Positions 2,583 to 12,561 of a stretch of DNA of 35,299 nucleotides are shown piece after piece. Source of the DNA: Chloroflexota bacterium (GTDB lineage: Bacteria > Chloroflexota > Limnocylindria > Limnocylindrales > CSP1-4); assembly GCA_003141955.1 (NCBI GenBank), contig PLOC01000046.1, forward strand, positions 1 through 35,299, in the 5' to 3' direction. The translations under genes were made by a program, and so were the position numbers. A model generated the notes under the pieces. That model was given only the letters and a program-made list of their open reading frames with translations, had not been told where the DNA came from and ran no database searches. Position 1 is the stretch's first letter. Each line of letters begins with the position of its first letter.

Positions 2583-3248
2583 ATGCGGCGCCAGCGCTCG
2601 CAACCCGCGGACCACGGCCGCGCCAGCCGCGAGACGATCCTCGACGGGGCCTTCGAGGCGTTCACGAAGGGCGGCTACCGGGACACCGCCGTCGACGACA
2701 TTGCGGCCGCGGCGGAGATCTCCAAGGGCGGGATCTACTTCCACTTCCCGACGAAGGAGGCGATCTTTCGCGAGCTGATGCGGACAACCGCCGACAAGCT
2801 GGTCGGGAAGGTCGAGACCGCCGTGGCGGCCGAGTCGGATCCGATCCGAAAGGCCGAGGTCGCGCTGGCGACTGTGCTCGAGGTGTTCGCCGGCCATCGC
2901 ACGATGGCTCGCCTCTTCTTCGAGGCCGGCGCCGGCGGACGGGGCTTCCAGGCCGAGACGAACGCCCTGCACGACCGATTCGCCCGGCTGATCCAGTCGT
3001 ACCTGGACGACGCCATCGCCCAGGGCACGATTCCTCCGATCGACACGCGCGTCACCAGCGTCGTCTGGTTCGGGGCGCTGGACGAGGTCGTGGCGCGGTG
3101 GCTGCTGGCGGAGCGGCCGGGGCGACTCGAGGATGCGTACCCGACGCTGCGGGCGCTCTTGCTTCGCAGCGTCGGCGTGGCGGAAGCGACGATCGCCGCC
3201 GGTCCCGACGCGGCGCTCCTCGCCACGTTCCCGGAGCAGCCGAAGTGA
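2583..3248 (+). CDS. TetR/AcrR family transcriptional regulator heading the men operon
   Basis: The product is 221 residues from ATG 2583, with AGGAGA at 2571-2576 six bases upstream. The N-terminal TetR helix-turn-helix spans about residues 17-65: ILDGAFEAF, then DDIAAAAEISKGGIYFHF and TKEAIF, the canonical 'G.iY.hF..Ke.l' end. The C-terminal helical part (70-221) would bind a ligand that cannot be predicted. The TGA stop overlaps the GTG start of menF (GTGA, 3245-3248), so regulator and menaquinone genes are co-translated. With the palindrome 36 bp upstream, this is most likely an autoregulator controlling quinone synthesis. The ligand could be a quinone, CoA ester or redox-cycling compound; that part is speculation. 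Confidence 0.9.
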   Translation: MRRQRSQPADHGRASRETILDGAFEAFTKGGYRDTAVDDIAAAAEISKGGIYFHFPTKEAIFRELMRTTADKLVGKVETAVAAESDPIRKAEVALATVLEVFAGHRTMARLFFEAGAGGRGFQAETNALHDRFARLIQSYLDDAIAQGTIPPIDTRVTSVVWFGALDEVVARWLLAERPGRLEDAYPTLRALLLRSVGVAEATIAAGPDAALLATFPEQPK

Positions 3249-4618
3249 CGGTGCTGAATCGGCTGGCCGCCACCAGCGTCCCGATCAAATCAGTCGACGC
3301 CGTCGCCCTCTATTCGGCGGCGGTCGAGGCCGACCTGGAGGCCGTCCTGTGGCTGCGGCCGAGCGAGCAGTTCGCGCTCGTGGGTATCGGCCGGGCGTGG
3401 TCGATCGAGCCGGCCGGACCGGAGCGATTCCTCGAAGCCGACGCGGCCTGGCGAGCGCTGGTCGACGGCGCCCGGATCTCGCGGCCGGACGAGGTCCGGG
3501 GGCTGGGGCCGGTGCTGCTCGGCGGGATGGGATTCACGGGCCGCGCCCCCGAGTCGAATGGCGCCTGGGCGCCGTTCGAGGCGAGCTCGATGGTCGTTCC
3601 GTCGCTGGCGGTCCTCCTATCCGATGGCGGGTCGTGGTTGACCACCTCGACCGTCGACGATGACTCGGCGGCCAACGCAAAGGCAGCCGGGCTGGAACGA
3701 ACGTGGACGCAGATCGCCGCTCGCGCAGGGGAGCTTGCGCCGCCCGCCGGCGAGCTCGACCCGCCGCCGTCCGACGCCCCTCTCGCGATCGACGGTGAGT
3801 GGCCGACCGTCCAGCAGTGGCGTCACATCGTCGGCCTGGCCACAGGCGCCGTCGGTCGCGGCCGGCTCGACAAGGTCGTCTTCGCCCGCCGCGTCGATCT
3901 GTCCTCGCCAGCCGCGCTGGATGTGCCGAATGCCCTTCGCCGCCTCGCCGCCAGCGCACCCGAGAGCACCGTCTTCGCCTTCCGGCGCGGAACCGCACAG
4001 TTCATCGGAGCCACTCCGGAGCGGCTCGTCCGCGCCGAGGGCCGGAATTATCGCACCGCCGCGGTCGCCGGCTCGATCCGGCGCGGCGCCGATCCCGCGG
4101 AGGACGCCGCCCTGGCCGCCGAGCTGCTGGCGTCGGAGAAGGAGCGCGAGGAGCACGCTGTCGTCGTCCGGGCGATCCGCCGCGGGCTCACGCCTATCTC
4201 CGAGCAGATCGAGATCGCCCCCGAGCCGGGCGTGCTCGTCCTTCGCCACGTCCAGCACCTCGTGACGGAGGTCGCGGGGACGCTGCGGGTCCAGGAAGGA
4301 TTGCTGGCCCTGGCCGGCCGGCTGCATCCCACTCCGGCCGTCGGCGGCGAGCCGCGTGACCTGGCCCTGGCGATTATCGACGAGCACGAAGGCTTCGATC
4401 GGGGCTGGTACGCCGGCCCGGTCGGATGGCTGAGCGCCGACGGCCACGGCGAGCTGATGGTCGCCCTCCGCTGCGGCCTGGTTCAGGATCGATGCGTGAC
4501 GCTCTACGCCGGGTGTGGCATCGTCGCCGACTCGGACCCGGACCGCGAGTGGGAGGAATCGAGGATCAAGATGCGAGCGGTCGCGGCGGCCCTGGGCCGG
4601 GCTGGAGACGAGCCATGA
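3245..4618 (+). CDS. menF: isochorismate synthase MenF
   Basis: The product is 457 residues from GTG 3245, which overlaps the tetR stop. It converts chorismate to isochorismate, the first step of classical menaquinone synthesis. The C-terminal chorismate-binding domain (about 190-450) shows the general-base lysine in LDKVVFARR (K210), the GSIRRG loop, ASEKEREEHAVVV, HLVTEV, LHPTPAVGG, and the GCGIVADSDPDREWEES finger. These match menaquinone or siderophore isochorismate synthases rather than anthranilate synthase. Context (menD next, ATGA overlap) decides for MenF. The N-terminal 180 residues are the variable part of the family. Cytoplasmic, Mg-dependent by family. Confidence 0.95.
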   Translation: MTVLNRLAATSVPIKSVDAVALYSAAVEADLEAVLWLRPSEQFALVGIGRAWSIEPAGPERFLEADAAWRALVDGARISRPDEVRGLGPVLLGGMGFTGRAPESNGAWAPFEASSMVVPSLAVLLSDGGSWLTTSTVDDDSAANAKAAGLERTWTQIAARAGELAPPAGELDPPPSDAPLAIDGEWPTVQQWRHIVGLATGAVGRGRLDKVVFARRVDLSSPAALDVPNALRRLAASAPESTVFAFRRGTAQFIGATPERLVRAEGRNYRTAAVAGSIRRGADPAEDAALAAELLASEKEREEHAVVVRAIRRGLTPISEQIEIAPEPGVLVLRHVQHLVTEVAGTLRVQEGLLALAGRLHPTPAVGGEPRDLALAIIDEHEGFDRGWYAGPVGWLSADGHGELMVALRCGLVQDRCVTLYAGCGIVADSDPDREWEESRIKMRAVAAALGRAGDEP

Positions 4619-6441
4619 GCGCGGGAGGCGGCCGGCCCAGCCAGCTGCGCGCGTTCGTCGAGGAACTGGCCCGGGCAGGGGTTCGCGACGCGATCGTCTG
4701 CCCCGGTTCCCGTTCGACCCCGCTGGCGCTCGCGCTTCGCGCCCACGACGGCATCCGAGTCCGGGTCCTGATCGACGAGCGGTCGGCCGGGTTCTTCGCT
4801 CTCGGGATTGCCCGAACGACGCGGCGAGTGGTCGCCCTGCTCGGGACCTCCGGCACGGCCGCGGTCAACTTCGCCCCGGCCGTCGTGGAGGCGTCGCTGG
4901 CGCGGGTGCCGCTCGTGGTCCTGACCGCCGATCGGCCGGCCGAGCTGCAGGATCGCGGCGCGCCGCAGACGATCGACCAGGACCATCTCTACGGCCGGCA
5001 CGCGAAGTGGTTCGCCGAGCTCGCCCTGATGGACGAGGCCCAGGACACGATGGCCCATGTCCGGTCGGTGGCCGGGCGGGCGGTCGCCACGGCGGTGGAA
5101 GGGCCGGCCGGGCCGGTCCACCTCAACCTGCCCCTGCGCGAGCCGCTCATCCCGGCCGGGGATCTCGGCGCGATCGACGAGCACGAGCCCGCCGGCGTCG
5201 AGGCGCCGTTCGCGGCCGCCGTGACCGGACGACGAACGCTGGACCGCGACCAGGTCGCCACGATCGCCCGGCGGCTGGTCGGCACGGATCGCGGGCTCAT
5301 CGTCGCCGGCCCGCTCGACGACCCGGCCGCCAACGAGCCGATCGCACGCCTCGCCGCCGCGACCGGCTATCCGATCCTGGCCGACCCGCTCTCGGGTCTG
5401 CGATGCGGCCCGCACGATCGGTCGCTCGTCCTCGCACGCGCCGATCACATCGTGCGGCCGGGTCCGTGGATCGACGCCCACCGGCCGGAGATCGTCATTC
5501 GCTTCGGGGCGATGCCGACTTCCAAGCCGGTCACGGAGCTGATGCGCGGCGGCCGCCCGGAGCTGTTCGTCGTCGACGGAGACGGCGGCTGGCGCGAGGC
5601 GGCGCTGGTTCCGGCTACGTTCGTTCACGCCGATGCAGCGTCGGCGGCTGGGGCGCTGGCCGACGCGGCCGAGGGCGTGCGGGCGGCGGGCAAGGAGCCG
5701 AGCGCGGGCGCCGAACCGTGCGGTCGCTGGACGCAGGCCTGGCTCGACGCCGAGCGGGCGGCCGGCCGGGCACTCGACTCGTGGCTCGCCGGATTGGATG
5801 AGCCGTTCGAGGGCGCACCCTTCAGGGCGCTGGGCGACTTCCTTCCGGCGGGAGCGCTGCTGTGGGCGGGCAATTCGATGCCGGTGCGCGACATGGACGA
5901 CTGGCTGCCAGCCGGCGAGCGGGCCATTCGCGTGTTCGCCAACCGCGGGGCCAACGGCATTGACGGCGTGATCTCGACGGCGCTCGGGTCGGCTGCCGTG
6001 GCCGAGGGTCCGGTCGTGCTGGTGGTCGGCGACGTGTCGCTCCTGCACGATCTCGGCGCGCTGGTCACGGCCCGCCTGCACGAGGCGGATCTCCTGGTCG
6101 TGCTGGTGAACAACGACGGCGGCGGGATCTTCTCGCTGCTGGCACAGGCGCGGACGGAGGCACCCGGCGCCGGCCTCCCGGCGCACTATGAGGAGTTGTT
6201 CGGGACGCCGCACGGAATTGCGCTCGGGCCGATCGTCGAAGCGTTTGGGTTCAGCCACCGCGTCGCGGAGGGCGGCGGCTACGCGGACCTGCGGGCCGCC
6301 ATCGAGGCCGAGATGGGCCGGCCGGGCCTGCGCGTGGTCGAGCTGCGGACGGATCGGGAGCGCAACGCCGAACTGCACCGGGCCGCCGCCGGCGCCGTGG
6401 CAGCGGCCCTCGCGGCGCTTGTCGGGGAGGGGACAGGGTGA
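4615..6441 (+). CDS. menD: SEPHCHC synthase MenD (thiamine diphosphate enzyme)
   Basis: The product is 608 residues from ATG 4615, overlapping the menF stop. MenD joins isochorismate and 2-oxoglutarate to make 2-succinyl-5-enolpyruvyl-6-hydroxy-3-cyclohexene-1-carboxylate. Visible signatures are [15 protein letters not shown] (residues about 26-40), the ThDP-activating glutamate in [11 protein letters not shown] (E55, the same number as in the E. coli enzyme), [38 protein letters not shown], and the C-terminal ThDP/Mg site [12 protein letters not shown] followed by [14 protein letters not shown]. The length is slightly above the usual 550-580. Its stop overlaps menH (GTGA, 6438-6441). Confidence 0.97.
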
Positions 6442-7283
6442 CCCGCCTCCGCGTCGACGGCGCGAGCTACGAAGTGGGAACGGGCGGGGACGGCCCGGCG
6501 CTCCTGCTGATTCACGGTTTCACCGGCCGCGGCGCCGATTGGGCGCCGTTCCTGCCGGCCCTGCGCCGCGTGGCGGCGACCATCTCGGTGGATCTTCTCG
6601 GCCACGGCAACTCGGATTCGCCAACCGACCCGGCCCGTCACGCCGTCGAGCGCCAGGCCGCGGACATGGCCTCGATTCTCCGCCAGCTGGGCATGGCGCC
6701 GGCCGACGTGCTCGGCTACTCGCTCGGCGCTCGGGTCGCGCTCCGCATGGCCGTGGCCGAGCCGGACGTCGTCGCCCGGCTGGTCCTCGAGAGCCCCTCC
6801 GCCGGGATCGCCGATACCGCCGCCCGGGCCGGGCGCCGCGCCGCCGACGAGCAGCTTGCGGAGATCCCCGACCGCGAGGGGATCGAGGCCTTCGTGGACC
6901 GCTGGGAGAATCTGCCGCTCTTTGCCCCCGAACGGGCGCTGCCCGCCAGACACCGTGCCCGCCTCCACGCCGCGCGGCTGCGGAACCGCCCGGAAGGGCT
7001 GGCCGCGTCGCTTCGCGGCGCCGGGCAGGGCGCGATGGAGCCGCTCCGCGATTGCCTGCCCTCCGTCACCGCGCCGACGCTGGTCGTGGCCGGGGCGCTG
7101 GACGAAGCCGGCGCGGATCGGGCTCGGACGATCGCCGCCGGGATCCCCGGCGCGCGCCTGGCCATCATGGAAGGCGTCGGCCACGCCCCGCATCGAGAGG
7201 CTCCAGACCGCTTCGCCTTGTTACTTCTCGGATTCATCGCTCGCCCGACCCCACTCGACGCCAGCGAAAGGGAACCGACATGA
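6438..7283 (+). CDS. menH: SHCHC synthase MenH (alpha/beta hydrolase)
   Basis: The product is 281 residues from GTG 6438, overlapping the menD stop. MenH removes pyruvate from SEPHCHC to form SHCHC. The alpha/beta hydrolase fold is clear: oxyanion region [17 protein letters not shown], nucleophile elbow GYSLGAR (S95), the MenH-like ESPSAGI after the elbow, the acid region in [10 protein letters not shown], and the catalytic histidine in GVGHAPHRE (H249). Its position between menD and menB supports MenH over a generic hydrolase. A second alpha/beta hydrolase is fused to menE at the end of the operon, so which one does which step deserves testing. The stop overlaps menB (ATGA, 7280-7283). Confidence 0.9.
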
Positions 7284-8113
7284 CGAACGGCACGAAGATC
7301 GCGTGGACGCCGGTCGTGGAGTACCGCGACATCCGCTACGAGCATTCGGGCACCGGGATCGCCCTGGTCACGATCAACCGGCCGGAGGTCCGCAACGCCT
7401 TCCGCCCCGAGACCGTGGCCGAGCTGATCGACGCCTTCCGCCGCATTCGGGACGACGGATCGATCGGCTGCGTCCTGCTGACCGGCGCCGGGGACAAGGC
7501 CTTCTGCTCCGGCGGGGACCTGCGGGTCAAGGGCCGGGGCGGGTACGTGGGCGAGGATGGGCTGGCCCGCCTGAACGTCCTCGACCTGCAGCGCCAGATC
7601 CGCTCGCTGCCCGTGCCGGTCATCGCCCTGGTGAACGGCTTCGCGATCGGCGGCGGGCACGTGCTCCACATCGTCTGCGACCTCTCGATCGCGTCGGATA
7701 GCGCCATCTTCGGCCAGGTCGGCCCCCAGGTCGGCAGTTTCGACGCCGGCTTCGGCATCGGGCTCCTGGCCCGGCTCGTCGGCGACAAGAAGGCCAAGGA
7801 GATCTGGTTCCTGTGCCGCCGCTACGATGCCAAACAGGCGCTCGAGATGGGCCTCGTCAACGCCGTGGTTCCTCAGGATCGGCTGCTCGACGAGGGCGTC
7901 GCGTGGGCGGACGAGATCCTGGCGATGAGCCCGACAGCGATCCGCTTCCTCAAGTCGGCTTTCCTGGTCGCCACCGACGGCCTGGCGGGTCTGCAGGAAT
8001 TCGCCGGCAACGCGACCGGCCTGTACTACACGACCGACGAGGCGCACGAGGGCTCGAAGGCATTCCTCGAGAAGCGCAAGCCCGACTTCCAACGCTTCCC
8101 GCGGCGACCCTGA
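7280..8113 (+). CDS. menB: 1,4-dihydroxy-2-naphthoyl-CoA synthase MenB
   Basis: The product is 277 residues from ATG 7280, overlapping the menH stop. MenB closes the second ring, turning o-succinylbenzoyl-CoA into DHNA-CoA. This crotonase-fold protein has [14 protein letters not shown], the oxyanion loop [22 protein letters not shown], and the MenB-specific [12 protein letters not shown] with the active-site S-F-D. It ends with the family's C-terminal [22 protein letters not shown] tail (split here: [10 protein letters not shown] then [11 protein letters not shown]). The length is typical. Coding frames upstream of 7280 belong to menD and menH, so the ATG in the overlap is the start. Confidence 0.97.
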
Positions 8114-8123
8114 GGCCGTGGTG

Positions 8124-9083
8124 ATGAATGCCGAAGCCTCCGGCCCGGCGCCGCAGTCGGCCCCCGCGATCGACCGCGCGCCTTCGAGCGCCCGAGTCTG
8201 GCTGCTGGCCATTCGACCGGCGACGCTGCCGGCGGCGGTCGGGCCGGTGCTGGTCGGGCTGGGCGCCGCAATCGGCTCGGGCGCCGCGTTTCGACCCGGC
8301 GCCGCGCTGGCCTGCCTGGCGGTGGGGCTCCTGCTCCAGATCGCGGCCAACCTGGCCAACGACCTGGCCGACTTCCGGCGCGGCGCCGACACGCCGGATC
8401 GGATGGGACCGACCCGCGTCGCCGCGGCCGGCCTGCTGACCGAGCGCCGGCTCGAGGTCGGGATCGGCGCCGTCATCGCAGTGTCCGCTGTCTTCGGTGT
8501 CTACCTGGCGGTCGTCGGCGGGATCGGCATGCTGGTCCTGGGTGCGCTCGCGGTCGTCTCCGCCCTGGCCTACACCGGTGGACCGTGGCCGTACGGCTAC
8601 CGCGGCCTGGGCGAGGTCTTCGTGTTCGCCTTCTTCGGCCTGATGGCGGTCGGCGTTACCGCGTACCTGCAGGCCGGCCGGGTCGAAGCGGTGTACCTGC
8701 TCGCGGCCGTCCCGATGGGGGCGCTCATCACCGGGGTCCTGATCGTCAACAACCTGCGCGACATCCCGACCGATCGGGCGGCGGGCAAGCGGACGCTGGC
8801 GGTCACTTTCGGCGAGGGATTCGCGAAGGCCGAGTACTGCGCGACGCTGCTCGTTGGGGCGGCGATCCCGGTGGCGCTGCTCGTCGCGCGCCTGGCCGGG
8901 CCGGCGGTTCTGCTGCCGCTGCTGTCCGTTGTCCTGGTTCCGCCGCTGGTGCGCGAGGTCCGCGCTGTAGGGCCGGCGTCCGATCGACGGCGGCTCAACC
9001 TCGTTCTGAAGGGAACGGCCCGGCTGTCGCTGGTCTACGGGGTCCTGTTTGCGGTCGGGCTGGCCGTCAGGATCGGAACGTGA
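8124..9083 (+). CDS. menA: 1,4-dihydroxy-2-naphthoate polyprenyltransferase MenA
   Basis: The product is 319 residues. I chose ATG 8124 because TGAGG at 8111-8115 lies eight bases upstream; GTGs at 8118 and 8121 are too close to it. MenA attaches the polyprenyl chain to DHNA, giving demethylmenaquinone, in the membrane. The UbiA-type prenyl-diphosphate motifs are present: NDLADFRRGAD with N79/D80/D83, and NNLRDIPTDRAAGKRTLA with D213 and D217. About eight or nine hydrophobic spans are seen. This is the only men junction without overlap (10 nt after menB). Its own stop overlaps menC (GTGA, 9080-9083). Confidence 0.95.
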   Translation: MNAEASGPAPQSAPAIDRAPSSARVWLLAIRPATLPAAVGPVLVGLGAAIGSGAAFRPGAALACLAVGLLLQIAANLANDLADFRRGADTPDRMGPTRVAAAGLLTERRLEVGIGAVIAVSAVFGVYLAVVGGIGMLVLGALAVVSALAYTGGPWPYGYRGLGEVFVFAFFGLMAVGVTAYLQAGRVEAVYLLAAVPMGALITGVLIVNNLRDIPTDRAAGKRTLAVTFGEGFAKAEYCATLLVGAAIPVALLVARLAGPAVLLPLLSVVLVPPLVREVRAVGPASDRRRLNLVLKGTARLSLVYGVLFAVGLAVRIGT

Positions 9084-10249
9084 GCGGAGCCAGCAGGCCG
9101 GCCCGCGGCGGCCGGCCGGACGGTGGCGGCGCCGTCGTCGCGGCGGAGGCGATCCGAGTTCGCGTGCCATTCAGGCGCCCGATCGTCACGTCGGCCGGGC
9201 GCTGGAGCCACCGCGAGTCGTGGATCGTGCGGCTCTTCGACGTCGCGGACGAGGTCGGGGTCGGCGAGGCGGCGCTGGATTTCGACGCGGGCGAGGCCGT
9301 GGTGGCCGGCCTGGCCCGGCTGGTGCGCGAGGCGGTCGAGAGCGCGCGCGACGTCGGTCGACTCCCGTCCACTGCCGAGCTCGAGGCCGAGCTCCAGGCG
9401 GCCGGCGTGGCGCGCCGGGCGCTTCGGTGCGCTCTCGACTCGGCACTTCTGGACCTGCGGCTCCAGGGGTCCGCGGCTCCCCACGGCGCCCCTCGCTCCG
9501 TGGCGGTCAACGCCACGATCGGTTTCCTCGACGTGAGCGAAACCGAGGAGGCGGCGCGGGCCGCTGTCGCTGCCGGCTTCGGGACGCTCAAGCTCAAGGC
9601 GGGTCCGGAGCGCGACGCGGCCGCGCTCGTGCAGCGCGTGGCCGCCGTGAGGGGTGCGGTCGGGCCGGAGGTGCGCCTGCGACTGGATGTCAACGGGGCG
9701 TGGGACGTGGCCACTGCCCGGGAGCGCATCGCTGCCGTGGCGCCGTATCGGATCGAGTACGTGGAGCAGCCTGTGGCCGCGGGCCACCCGTCCGATCTGG
9801 CGGCGGTCCACGAGCGGTCGCCCGTGCCGATCGCCGCGGACGAGGCGGTGGGTTCGGTGGCGGCCGCCCGCGAGCTGCTCGCGGCTCGGGCCGCCGACGT
9901 ACTGGTCGTCAAGCCGGCACGGGTCGGCGGCCCGGCGGCGGCGTGGGAGATCGCGGATCTGGCCGCCACGGCGGGAGTGCCCGTGGTCATATCCACGCTC
10001 TTCGAGACGGGAGTCGGCCTCGCGGGGGCGCTCGCGGTCGCGGCTGGCCTGCCGGCGGTCGGCGGCGCCACGGCCGCCCTCACCCACGGCCTTGCGACCG
10101 CCGAGCTGCTCGAGTCCGATCTGCTGACCCGCGCCCCGCGGGTGGTGGACGGACGCATGATCGTGCCCGAAGGACTGGGGCTCGGGATCGCCCTGGACGA
10201 AGAGGCGCTTCGGCGGTACGCGGTCGAGTGGCAGGGGTGCCGGCCGTGA
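9080..10249 (+). CDS. menC: o-succinylbenzoate synthase MenC (enolase superfamily)
   Basis: The product is 389 residues from GTG 9080, overlapping the menA stop. MenC dehydrates SHCHC to o-succinylbenzoate. The complete enolase-superfamily active site is visible: KxK in LKLKAG (K171, K173), metal ligands D203 (LDVNGAW), E229 (VEQP) and D254 (ADEAV), and the second acid/base lysine K278 (VVKPARVGG). An N-terminal tail of about 20 Gly/Arg/Ala-rich residues precedes the first strand and may be unneeded. Muconate or dipeptide-epimerase relatives are alternatives by fold, but the position in the men operon settles it. The stop overlaps menE (GTGA, 10246-10249). Confidence 0.94.
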   Translation: MSGASRPARGGRPDGGGAVVAAEAIRVRVPFRRPIVTSAGRWSHRESWIVRLFDVADEVGVGEAALDFDAGEAVVAGLARLVREAVESARDVGRLPSTAELEAELQAAGVARRALRCALDSALLDLRLQGSAAPHGAPRSVAVNATIGFLDVSETEEAARAAVAAGFGTLKLKAGPERDAAALVQRVAAVRGAVGPEVRLRLDVNGAWDVATARERIAAVAPYRIEYVEQPVAAGHPSDLAAVHERSPVPIAADEAVGSVAAARELLAARAADVLVVKPARVGGPAAAWEIADLAATAGVPVVISTLFETGVGLAGALAVAAGLPAVGGATAALTHGLATAELLESDLLTRAPRVVDGRMIVPEGLGLGIALDEEALRRYAVEWQGCRP

Positions 10250-12561
10250 CCGCCGCGCCGCCGTTCGCCGCGGCCGCGCGAGCATACGCCCGCCTTCGAC
10301 CCGACGACCCCGCCATCCTCGACGGCGACCTGCGCTGGTCGTGGGCGGAGCTGGACAGCCGGGCGGACGCCGTCGCGGCCGGGCTGGCTGCGGCCGGAAT
10401 CGAGCCGGGCGATCGCGTCGGGCTGCTCGCCGTCTCCTCGGCCGGAACAGTCGCCGCGTTCCACGGCATGGTCCGGGCCGGCGTCGTCGCCGTCCCGCTC
10501 GGGCCGCGGCTGGCACGGCCGGAAGTGGCCGCGATCGCCGCCGGTGCGGGCCTGCGCGCGATGGTCGCGCCGCGGGCCACCCCGCTCGCGATCGAGGGCG
10601 TCGCGGCCCTGGCCCTCGAAGTCCTGCTCGAGGCCGGCGCCCCATTCCCCCCTCGTCGCACCGCGCCCCCTGGCACGCCTGCGGCCATCGTCCCCACGTC
10701 CGGAACCACAGGCCGGCCGAAGCTCGTCCGGCTGGGAGCGTCCCAGCTCGACGCCAGTGCCGAGGCATGGTCCGCGGCGCTGCCGCCCGCGACCGGCTGG
10801 CTGCTCTCGCTGAACCTCGCCCACGTCTCGGGCATCGGGATACTGGTGCGGGCGGCCCGGGCCGGCGTGCCGGTAGTCGCGCCCGCCTCTGAGGACGACG
10901 AGCCGATCGTTCCCGGCCTCCGGGCCGCGCGGTCGGCGGGCATGAGCGTCAGCCATGTTTCGCTCGTGACCCCGCAGCTCGTCCGCCTTCTCGACGCCTC
11001 AGAGGGCGCGGCGCCGCCTTCCGAACTCCGCGCAATTCTCCTGGGCGGCGGCCCGATCCCCGAGGCGCTGGTGTCCCGGGCGCTGGCGGTCGGCTGGCCG
11101 ATCGTCCCCAGCTACGGCATGACCGAGACGGCCTCGGGCGTGGTCGCCATGCCGCTCGGCGATGCCGGCCGGCGCCCCTGGTCGGCCGGCCGAGCGCTGC
11201 CCGGCGTCGAGCTTCTGATCGCGGCTACCGACGCTGCGACGGTCGCTCCCGTCGCACCATGCGCGGACGGCGAGATACTGGTCCGCGGCCCGATGGTCTT
11301 CGACGGCTACGAGAGCGACCCCGAAGCGTCCGCGGCCGCCCTCGACTCGGAAGGCTGGCTGCACACCGGCGATCTGGGCGGCCTGGACCGGGAAGGCTGG
11401 CTCCGCGTCGTGGCCCGCCGCGACGAGATCATCATCTCGGGCGGCGAGAACGTCGCTCCCGCCGAGATCGAAGCGGTGCTGGCGAGCCATCCGGCGGTGG
11501 CAGACGTTGGCGTCGTCGGTTTCCCGGACGAGAAGTGGGGCTCCGTCCCCGTCGCTGTCGTCGCGTTCCAGGCTGGTGCCCGCGAAGACCCGGAAACGCT
11601 TCGGGCGTTCGTCCGCGACCGTCTGGCCTCGTTCAAGGTGCCGGCCCGCATCGTCGAAGCCGCGGCCGTCCCCAGGTCGCCGTCCGGCAAGCTGCTCCGG
11701 CGCTCGCTGCTGACCCTGGCCGGCGCCGCCGGGCGCCGCCCATCGCTGGCCGGCACGACGAGAGTCGAAGCCGACGACGGCCAGCCGCTTGCGATGCGCG
11801 ACCTGCCCGGGCCGCCGGGCGCGCCCACCGTCGTCCTTCTACACGCGACCCTTTCGACCTCCCGCCAGCTGCTGCGACTCGCCGGTCAGTTGCGGCCCGA
11901 CGCCCGCGTCCTGCTGCCGGATCGGCGGGGGAGCGGCGCGAGCGAGATGGAGATCCCGGCGCCGGTTTCGATAGCTCGCCACGTCGCCGATCTTCTGGCC
12001 GTCCTCGACGCCGCCGCCGTAGCCCGCCCCGTCATCTTCGGCCACAGCTTCGGCGCGCTGCTGGCCCTCGAGTTCGCGGCTCGTCATCCCGAACGAGCGG
12101 CCGCCGTCGTGGCCTACGAGCCGCCCTATCTGGCGGTCGCCTCCGCGGCGCTGCTGGCGCGGTTCGGTCAGCTGGCCTATGCCGTCGCCGTCGCGCACGC
12201 CACCGGCGGCCCCGCCGCGGCGGCTCAGCTGTTCGTCCGCGCGGTCGCCGGCGACCAGGCCTGGGAGAGCCTCGCACCCGCCCAGCGCGCCTCGCTGGAG
12301 GCCGAGGGTTCGGGCGCCCTGGCCGACACTTCGATGAACGACCTCGACCTCGCCGGGCTGTCGCGCATCGCCTGCCCGGTCGTTCTCGCCACGGGCGGCG
12401 GCTCGGACGACTTCTACGCCCCGATCGCCGACGCGCTCGCAGCCGCCATCCCCAACTCGCTCCGGGTCGTCCTGCCGGGCCTGCGCCACGTCGCGCCGGT
12501 CACGGACCCGGAGCTGATTGCTACGCTGATCCGCGACGGCGGAGCGGCGGTCGACCGCTGA
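10246..12561 (+). CDS. menE: fusion: o-succinylbenzoyl-CoA ligase MenE plus alpha/beta hydrolase
   Basis: The product is 771 residues from GTG 10246, in the overlap with menC; AGGGG at 10233-10237 is eight bases upstream, and GTG 10237 is a weaker alternative. Residues 1-490 form an adenylating enzyme: PTSGTTGRPK (about 150-159), YGMTET (290-295), GWLHTGDLG, SGGENVAP, and the A10 lysine in SPSGKLLRR (K482). This is MenE, which makes o-succinylbenzoyl-CoA. After a linker, residues about 510-771 are a complete alpha/beta hydrolase: LLHATLSTS, PDRRGSG, GHSFGAL (S601), GGSDDFYAP (D721/D722), LRHVAP (H748). One uninterrupted frame covers both. MenE is normally about 450-500 residues, so the second domain is extra. 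It may hydrolyse DHNA-CoA or duplicate MenH; its role is unproven. Confidence 0.92.
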   Translation: MTAAPPFAAAARAYARLRPDDPAILDGDLRWSWAELDSRADAVAAGLAAAGIEPGDRVGLLAVSSAGTVAAFHGMVRAGVVAVPLGPRLARPEVAAIAAGAGLRAMVAPRATPLAIEGVAALALEVLLEAGAPFPPRRTAPPGTPAAIVPTSGTTGRPKLVRLGASQLDASAEAWSAALPPATGWLLSLNLAHVSGIGILVRAARAGVPVVAPASEDDEPIVPGLRAARSAGMSVSHVSLVTPQLVRLLDASEGAAPPSELRAILLGGGPIPEALVSRALAVGWPIVPSYGMTETASGVVAMPLGDAGRRPWSAGRALPGVELLIAATDAATVAPVAPCADGEILVRGPMVFDGYESDPEASAAALDSEGWLHTGDLGGLDREGWLRVVARRDEIIISGGENVAPAEIEAVLASHPAVADVGVVGFPDEKWGSVPVAVVAFQAGAREDPETLRAFVRDRLASFKVPARIVEAAAVPRSPSGKLLRRSLLTLAGAAGRRPSLAGTTRVEADDGQPLAMRDLPGPPGAPTVVLLHATLSTSRQLLRLAGQLRPDARVLLPDRRGSGASEMEIPAPVSIARHVADLLAVLDAAAVARPVIFGHSFGALLALEFAARHPERAAAVVAYEPPYLAVASAALLARFGQLAYAVAVAHATGGPAAAAQLFVRAVAGDQAWESLAPAQRASLEAEGSGALADTSMNDLDLAGLSRIACPVVLATGGGSDDFYAPIADALAAAIPNSLRVVLPGLRHVAPVTDPELIATLIRDGGAAVDR

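Follow-up and report, generated by a model that had tools for sequence, protein, structure and literature searches.

The men operon and its missing step

How does a menaquinone operon that encodes the other classical steps release DHNA from coenzyme A? The question is raised by a contig from a family of uncultured Chloroflexota (the host family), analysed here over its whole length of 35,299 nucleotides (the window); it forms contig 117 in a host genome of 2.8 Mb and 95.6% completeness. Many bacteria encode the enzyme for DHNA release outside the menaquinone operon, and its identity has been guessed from promiscuous hotdog proteins. The characterised DHNA-CoA thioesterases named in the literature searched are hotdog proteins (PMC8918352, PMC5030760), and no report of a non-hotdog one was found in the literature searched. 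In this operon the last gene joins a hydrolase to MenE, which offers a concrete candidate for DHNA release or for recycling the breakdown product of OSB-CoA. The latter activity has been postulated, and no assignment of it was found in the literature searched.

The operon has the order F-D-H-B-A-C-E on the forward strand, and its genes mostly overlap or lie a few bases apart. The products of menF (isochorismate synthase, 3245..4618), menD (4615..6441), menH (6438..7283) and menA (8118..9083) score over the cut-offs of the NCBIfam models TIGR00543, TIGR00173, TIGR03695 (211.7 bits against 208.55) and TIGR00751, and the menB model TIGR01929 (396 bits, over its cut-off) confirms the DHNA-CoA synthase gene at 7280..8113. 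The o-succinylbenzoate synthase gene menC (9080..10249) has PRK02901 as its best match, below the cut-off, and a conserved position. No hotdog protein is encoded in the operon. The description in the earlier note, that all classical steps except a DHNA-CoA thioesterase are present and that MenH is a separate gene, therefore holds, and this MenH also carries the diagnostic residues discussed below. MenG is encoded away from the operon in the host genome (G000:C1:18818-19480). In relatives from two genera (G024 and G095) it lies directly behind the hydrolase, so that these clusters encode the route from chorismate to menaquinone except for a known DHNA-CoA thioesterase. The E. coli DHNA-CoA thioesterase gene lies outside the men operon, so the absence of such a gene from an operon proves little.

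Upstream of menF there is, judged from the sequence, a gene for a TetR-type regulator (about 2600-3248, forward strand) whose end overlaps the GTG start of menF at 3245 by GTGA. The regulator may thus be translated together with the men operon and may also control it. Further upstream, at 251-2415 on the same strand, are two genes resembling glycoside-active enzymes, the second of which looks by eye like a GH130 phosphorylase.

The MenE-hydrolase fusion and its conservation

The fusion gene (10246..12561, forward strand) is one uninterrupted frame of 771 amino acids with a GTG start that overlaps the menC stop. The MenE-type ligase, an o-succinylbenzoate-CoA ligase, takes up about residues 1-490 (10246..11733) and has the AMP-binding and AMP-binding_C domains (PF00501 and PF13193). 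Its score against TIGR01923 (menE) is 306.7 bits (E 3e-91), under the curated cut-off of 330.15, so the MenE name rests on this being the best model and on the conserved operon position. A linker and the hydrolase domain follow (11734..12558), the hydrolase forming the last 260 residues or so with its core starting at about 11782. The domain matches Abhydrolase_6 (PF12697, E 5e-15, over the cut-off) and its AlphaFold (AF2) model has a mean pLDDT of 93.3. Pfam, the model and a fold search all give an alpha/beta-hydrolase and not a hotdog fold, and an alignment of 28 homologues adds the serine nucleophile elbow, the histidine and an acid. The joining of the two enzymes in a single frame, as first noticed from the sequence, is thus borne out.

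For conservation, the domain was searched for in 60 related genomes, where it was found in the same position behind MenE, and the DNA was read around these hits and around strong matches to menB among 150 sampled genomes of the class. In the host family, 28 operons from 11 genera have the 3' side of menE on the contig, and the hydrolase lies directly behind MenE in all 28. It is fused in frame in 23 of these operons, is a separate overlapping reading frame in four (L045, L214, L218 and L226, where its ATG or GTG start overlaps the menE TGA as ATGA or GTGA) and is broken by a frameshift in one. In that one (L038, genome G013) the shift falls close to the 3' end of the menE portion and puts MenE and the hydrolase in different frames; since the sequence has an ambiguous base at this place, it probably reflects a fault of sequencing or assembly. 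Other MenE-hydrolase fusions thus exist, as the earlier note proposed to find out, and an assembly error as the source of the fusion is rejected since it recurs in 23 species. The MenE-hydrolase is a conserved domain fusion within the classical pathway, and no description of it was found in the literature searched. One host-family operon (L046, from G033, a genome only 54% complete) has no MenH between menD and menB and keeps the fusion. Three genomes of one genus (G002, G012 and G020) have a MenG/UbiE-type methyltransferase over the cut-off, but no menB over the cut-off; about half of that genus is without such a menB.

The active site

A Ser-Asp-His triad of S601, D721/D722 and H748 had been proposed for the domain. 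The serine and the histidine of this assignment stand: Ser601 in a GHSFG motif (12046..12048, forward strand, as are all residues given here) and His748 (12487..12489) are conserved in 28 of 28 aligned domains. The aspartates (12406..12411) do not stand, as position 721 is Asp in 15 domains, Glu in seven and another residue in six, and position 722 is also variable. The catalytic acid is probably Glu625 in a YEPPY motif (12118..12120), which is acidic in every domain (Glu in 27, Asp in one) and which the AlphaFold model places right after strand beta6 (domain residues 124-128). Glu126 of zearalenone hydrolase presumably also sits after beta6. That enzyme uses a Ser102-His242-Glu126 triad and shows that a glutamate can serve as the acid in this superfamily (PMC5505240).

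The domain shares the alpha/beta-hydrolase fold, the Ser-acid-His arrangement and the menaquinone operon with MenH, the SHCHC synthase, which was once credited with DHNA-CoA hydrolysis (PMC5030760). However, the conserved acid of the domain is at beta6 and that of MenH at beta7, and the substrate-binding residues differ. In E. coli MenH the anionic substrate is bound by Arg90 and Arg124, and Tyr85 and Trp147 are also important (PMC3630204). Equivalents of Tyr85, Arg90 and Arg124 are present in all 31 separate MenH proteins of the host family and in none of the 28 fused domains. Their absence would suit an acyl group that bears no charge, like that of DHNA. In a tree of 154 proteins the MenH sequences group in a single clade, and the fused domain falls in a different one, beside uncharacterised hydrolases of the Acidimicrobiia. 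When fewer proteins were put to an approximately unbiased (AU) test, a grouping of the fused domain with MenH was not rejected (p 0.31), so it is the residues and not the tree that show the domain is not a second MenH. For these sister proteins from Acidimicrobiia, the surrounding genes gave no functional clue; several of the proteins are encoded, by eye, beside a 2-oxoglutarate-dehydrogenase-like gene.

In structural comparison the best match is 3r0v, an uncharacterised alpha/beta-hydrolase from Sphaerobacter thermophilus (Z 28.4, 28% identity) that shares the EPPY motif and has no known link to menaquinone synthesis. Zearalenone hydrolase and the 3-oxoadipate enol-lactonase PcaD are also close in fold (Z 25-28), but they have only about 15-22% identity to the domain, act in other pathways and are free-standing.

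A candidate DHNA-CoA thioesterase

The fused domain is the best candidate for releasing DHNA from coenzyme A, the sole step missing from the operon, because it is found behind MenE in every host-family species with a readable operon. The reading preferred here, which is put forward tentatively, is that DHNA-CoA in these Chloroflexota is hydrolysed by the C-terminal domain, a thioesterase of alpha/beta-hydrolase rather than hotdog type that was recruited at the 3' end of menE. It is reached by elimination and from the fact that the domain is never missing. As to its substrate and reaction, and why it came to be fused, we infer the following. The domain would be a serine hydrolase dedicated to the menaquinone pathway that converts DHNA-CoA to DHNA and CoA. 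The nucleophile attacking the thioester would be Ser601, with His748 and an acid, most probably Glu625, to activate it; water would then release DHNA for MenA. Joining the hydrolase to MenE would hold it next to the enzyme that uses the CoA set free, and one protein would both open and close the CoA part of menaquinone synthesis. The reaction and the pathway position would be those of the hotdog DHNA-CoA thioesterases (the cyanobacterial type, E. coli YdiI and MenI of Listeria and S. aureus), which differ in being unrelated in fold and mechanism and in being small separate proteins that are not fused to MenE. Plant PHYLLO, a MenF-D-C-H fusion, also joins enzymes of the phylloquinone pathway including a member with the hydrolase fold, but it has other partners, no MenE and no thioesterase role.

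Several points speak against a thioesterase. The characterised enzymes for this step named in the literature searched have the hotdog fold. Among solved structures, those nearest to the domain belong to esterases and lactonases. MenE, instead of MenB or MenA, is an odd fusion partner for an enzyme that acts two reactions later, and a hydrolase placed there risks wasting OSB-CoA. The unlinked hotdog proteins of the genome could also serve.

Alternative functions

Why should a hydrolase be fused to MenE, of all enzymes in the pathway? The main rival reading answers this directly. OSB-CoA is unstable at physiological pH and breaks down spontaneously to a spirodilactone, and an esterase would be needed to recycle this product (PMC6210188). 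The domain could be a metabolite-repair lactonase or esterase that opens the OSB spirodilactone to OSB, which is returned to MenE. Among the proteins that resemble it in fold are the enol-lactonase 2xua (Z 28.2) as well as zearalenone lactonases (Z about 26), with zearalenone hydrolase having the Ser-His-Glu126 triad described above (PMC5505240). The best NCBIfam matches of the domain are PcaD-type enol-lactonases, under the cut-off. However, plain esterases and dehalogenases are also fold neighbours at similar Z, and fold similarity does not decide the substrate. For a repair gene, presence in all 28 operons is a high rate of retention, and the thioesterase step would stay unfilled. A repair role is a serious possibility but a somewhat doubtful one.

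It is rather unlikely that the domain is an esterase of some other function that happens to share the operon, and that DHNA-CoA is left, as in E. coli, to a hotdog protein encoded elsewhere. The earlier note had raised the possibility of a hotdog thioesterase elsewhere in the genome, and the outcome is divided. The host genome has three PF03061 hotdog proteins, which are YciA-like, PaaI-like and MaoC-like. No 4HBT_2 protein was found in it or in four relatives (G003, G009, G014 and G015), and several other host-family genera have unlinked ones, which this reading could use. None of the PF03061 matches listed lies in a host-family men operon. The gap in the operon is thus real, yet an unlinked hotdog could fill it, as unlinked PaaI-like and YciA-like proteins exist. 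The PaaI-like protein (the L002 type, L002:1255-1815) occurs in 14 of 16 men-positive genomes, but it is about equally common in men-negative ones (16 of 21; Fisher p 0.67), and searches did not find it in G036 or G022, both of which bear the pathway. It does not follow the pathway, and none of the types examined (PaaI-like, YciA-like and 4HBT_2) tracks the men-positive genomes. The domain, by contrast, is strictly coupled to MenE.

An editing role, in which incorrect or stalled acyl-CoA or acyl-AMP products of MenE are removed by the domain in the manner of type II thioesterase proofreading, is unlikely. The partner is an adenylating ligase and the domain has the serine alpha/beta-hydrolase fold, which would suit such a role, but its match to Thioesterase (PF00975) is weak and below the cut-off. 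Editing activities are usually dispensable, whereas the domain is universal in host-family operons. Finally, duplication onto MenE of a MenH paralogue, which was another option of the earlier note, or of the true SHCHC synthase is rejected as highly improbable: the shared superfamily, the AU result and the operon that keeps the domain without a MenH would allow it, but the diagnostic residues are missing in 28 of 28 domains, TIGR03695 gives only 32.6 bits against a cut-off of 208.55, the clade in the tree is distinct and 31 host-family operons have a separate MenH.

Other Chloroflexota men clusters

Variations in how the operon ends are seen in other Chloroflexota. About 30 men clusters from outside the host family were read, and most end with neither this hydrolase nor a hotdog protein, which also weighs against the domain as the thioesterase. 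Two genomes, G245 (L269; 97% complete) and G163 (L258), have men operons but neither a PF03061 nor a 4HBT_2 hotdog protein, which leaves their DHNA-CoA step lacking an enzyme of known type. The first of these suggests that Chloroflexota have some way of carrying out the step other than by a hotdog protein, or at least by one that is recognised. In two distant families (G258 and G297) a similar hydrolase gene overlaps the end of menE, which counts in favour of the thioesterase reading. A quick tree suggested independent, convergent recruitment in these families, but in an AU test one clade uniting their genes and the host-family domain was not rejected (p 0.58), so that recruitment may have happened once or twice. 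Another cluster (G271) has a hotdog gene just past the men operon on the opposite strand. In an outgroup from the same class (G118) the men cluster has the order F-D-B-C-E-A with no MenH in it, and alongside menF is an alpha/beta-hydrolase gene (L205:5313-6149, reverse strand) that is oriented divergently and has the motifs GHSAG and DEPA.
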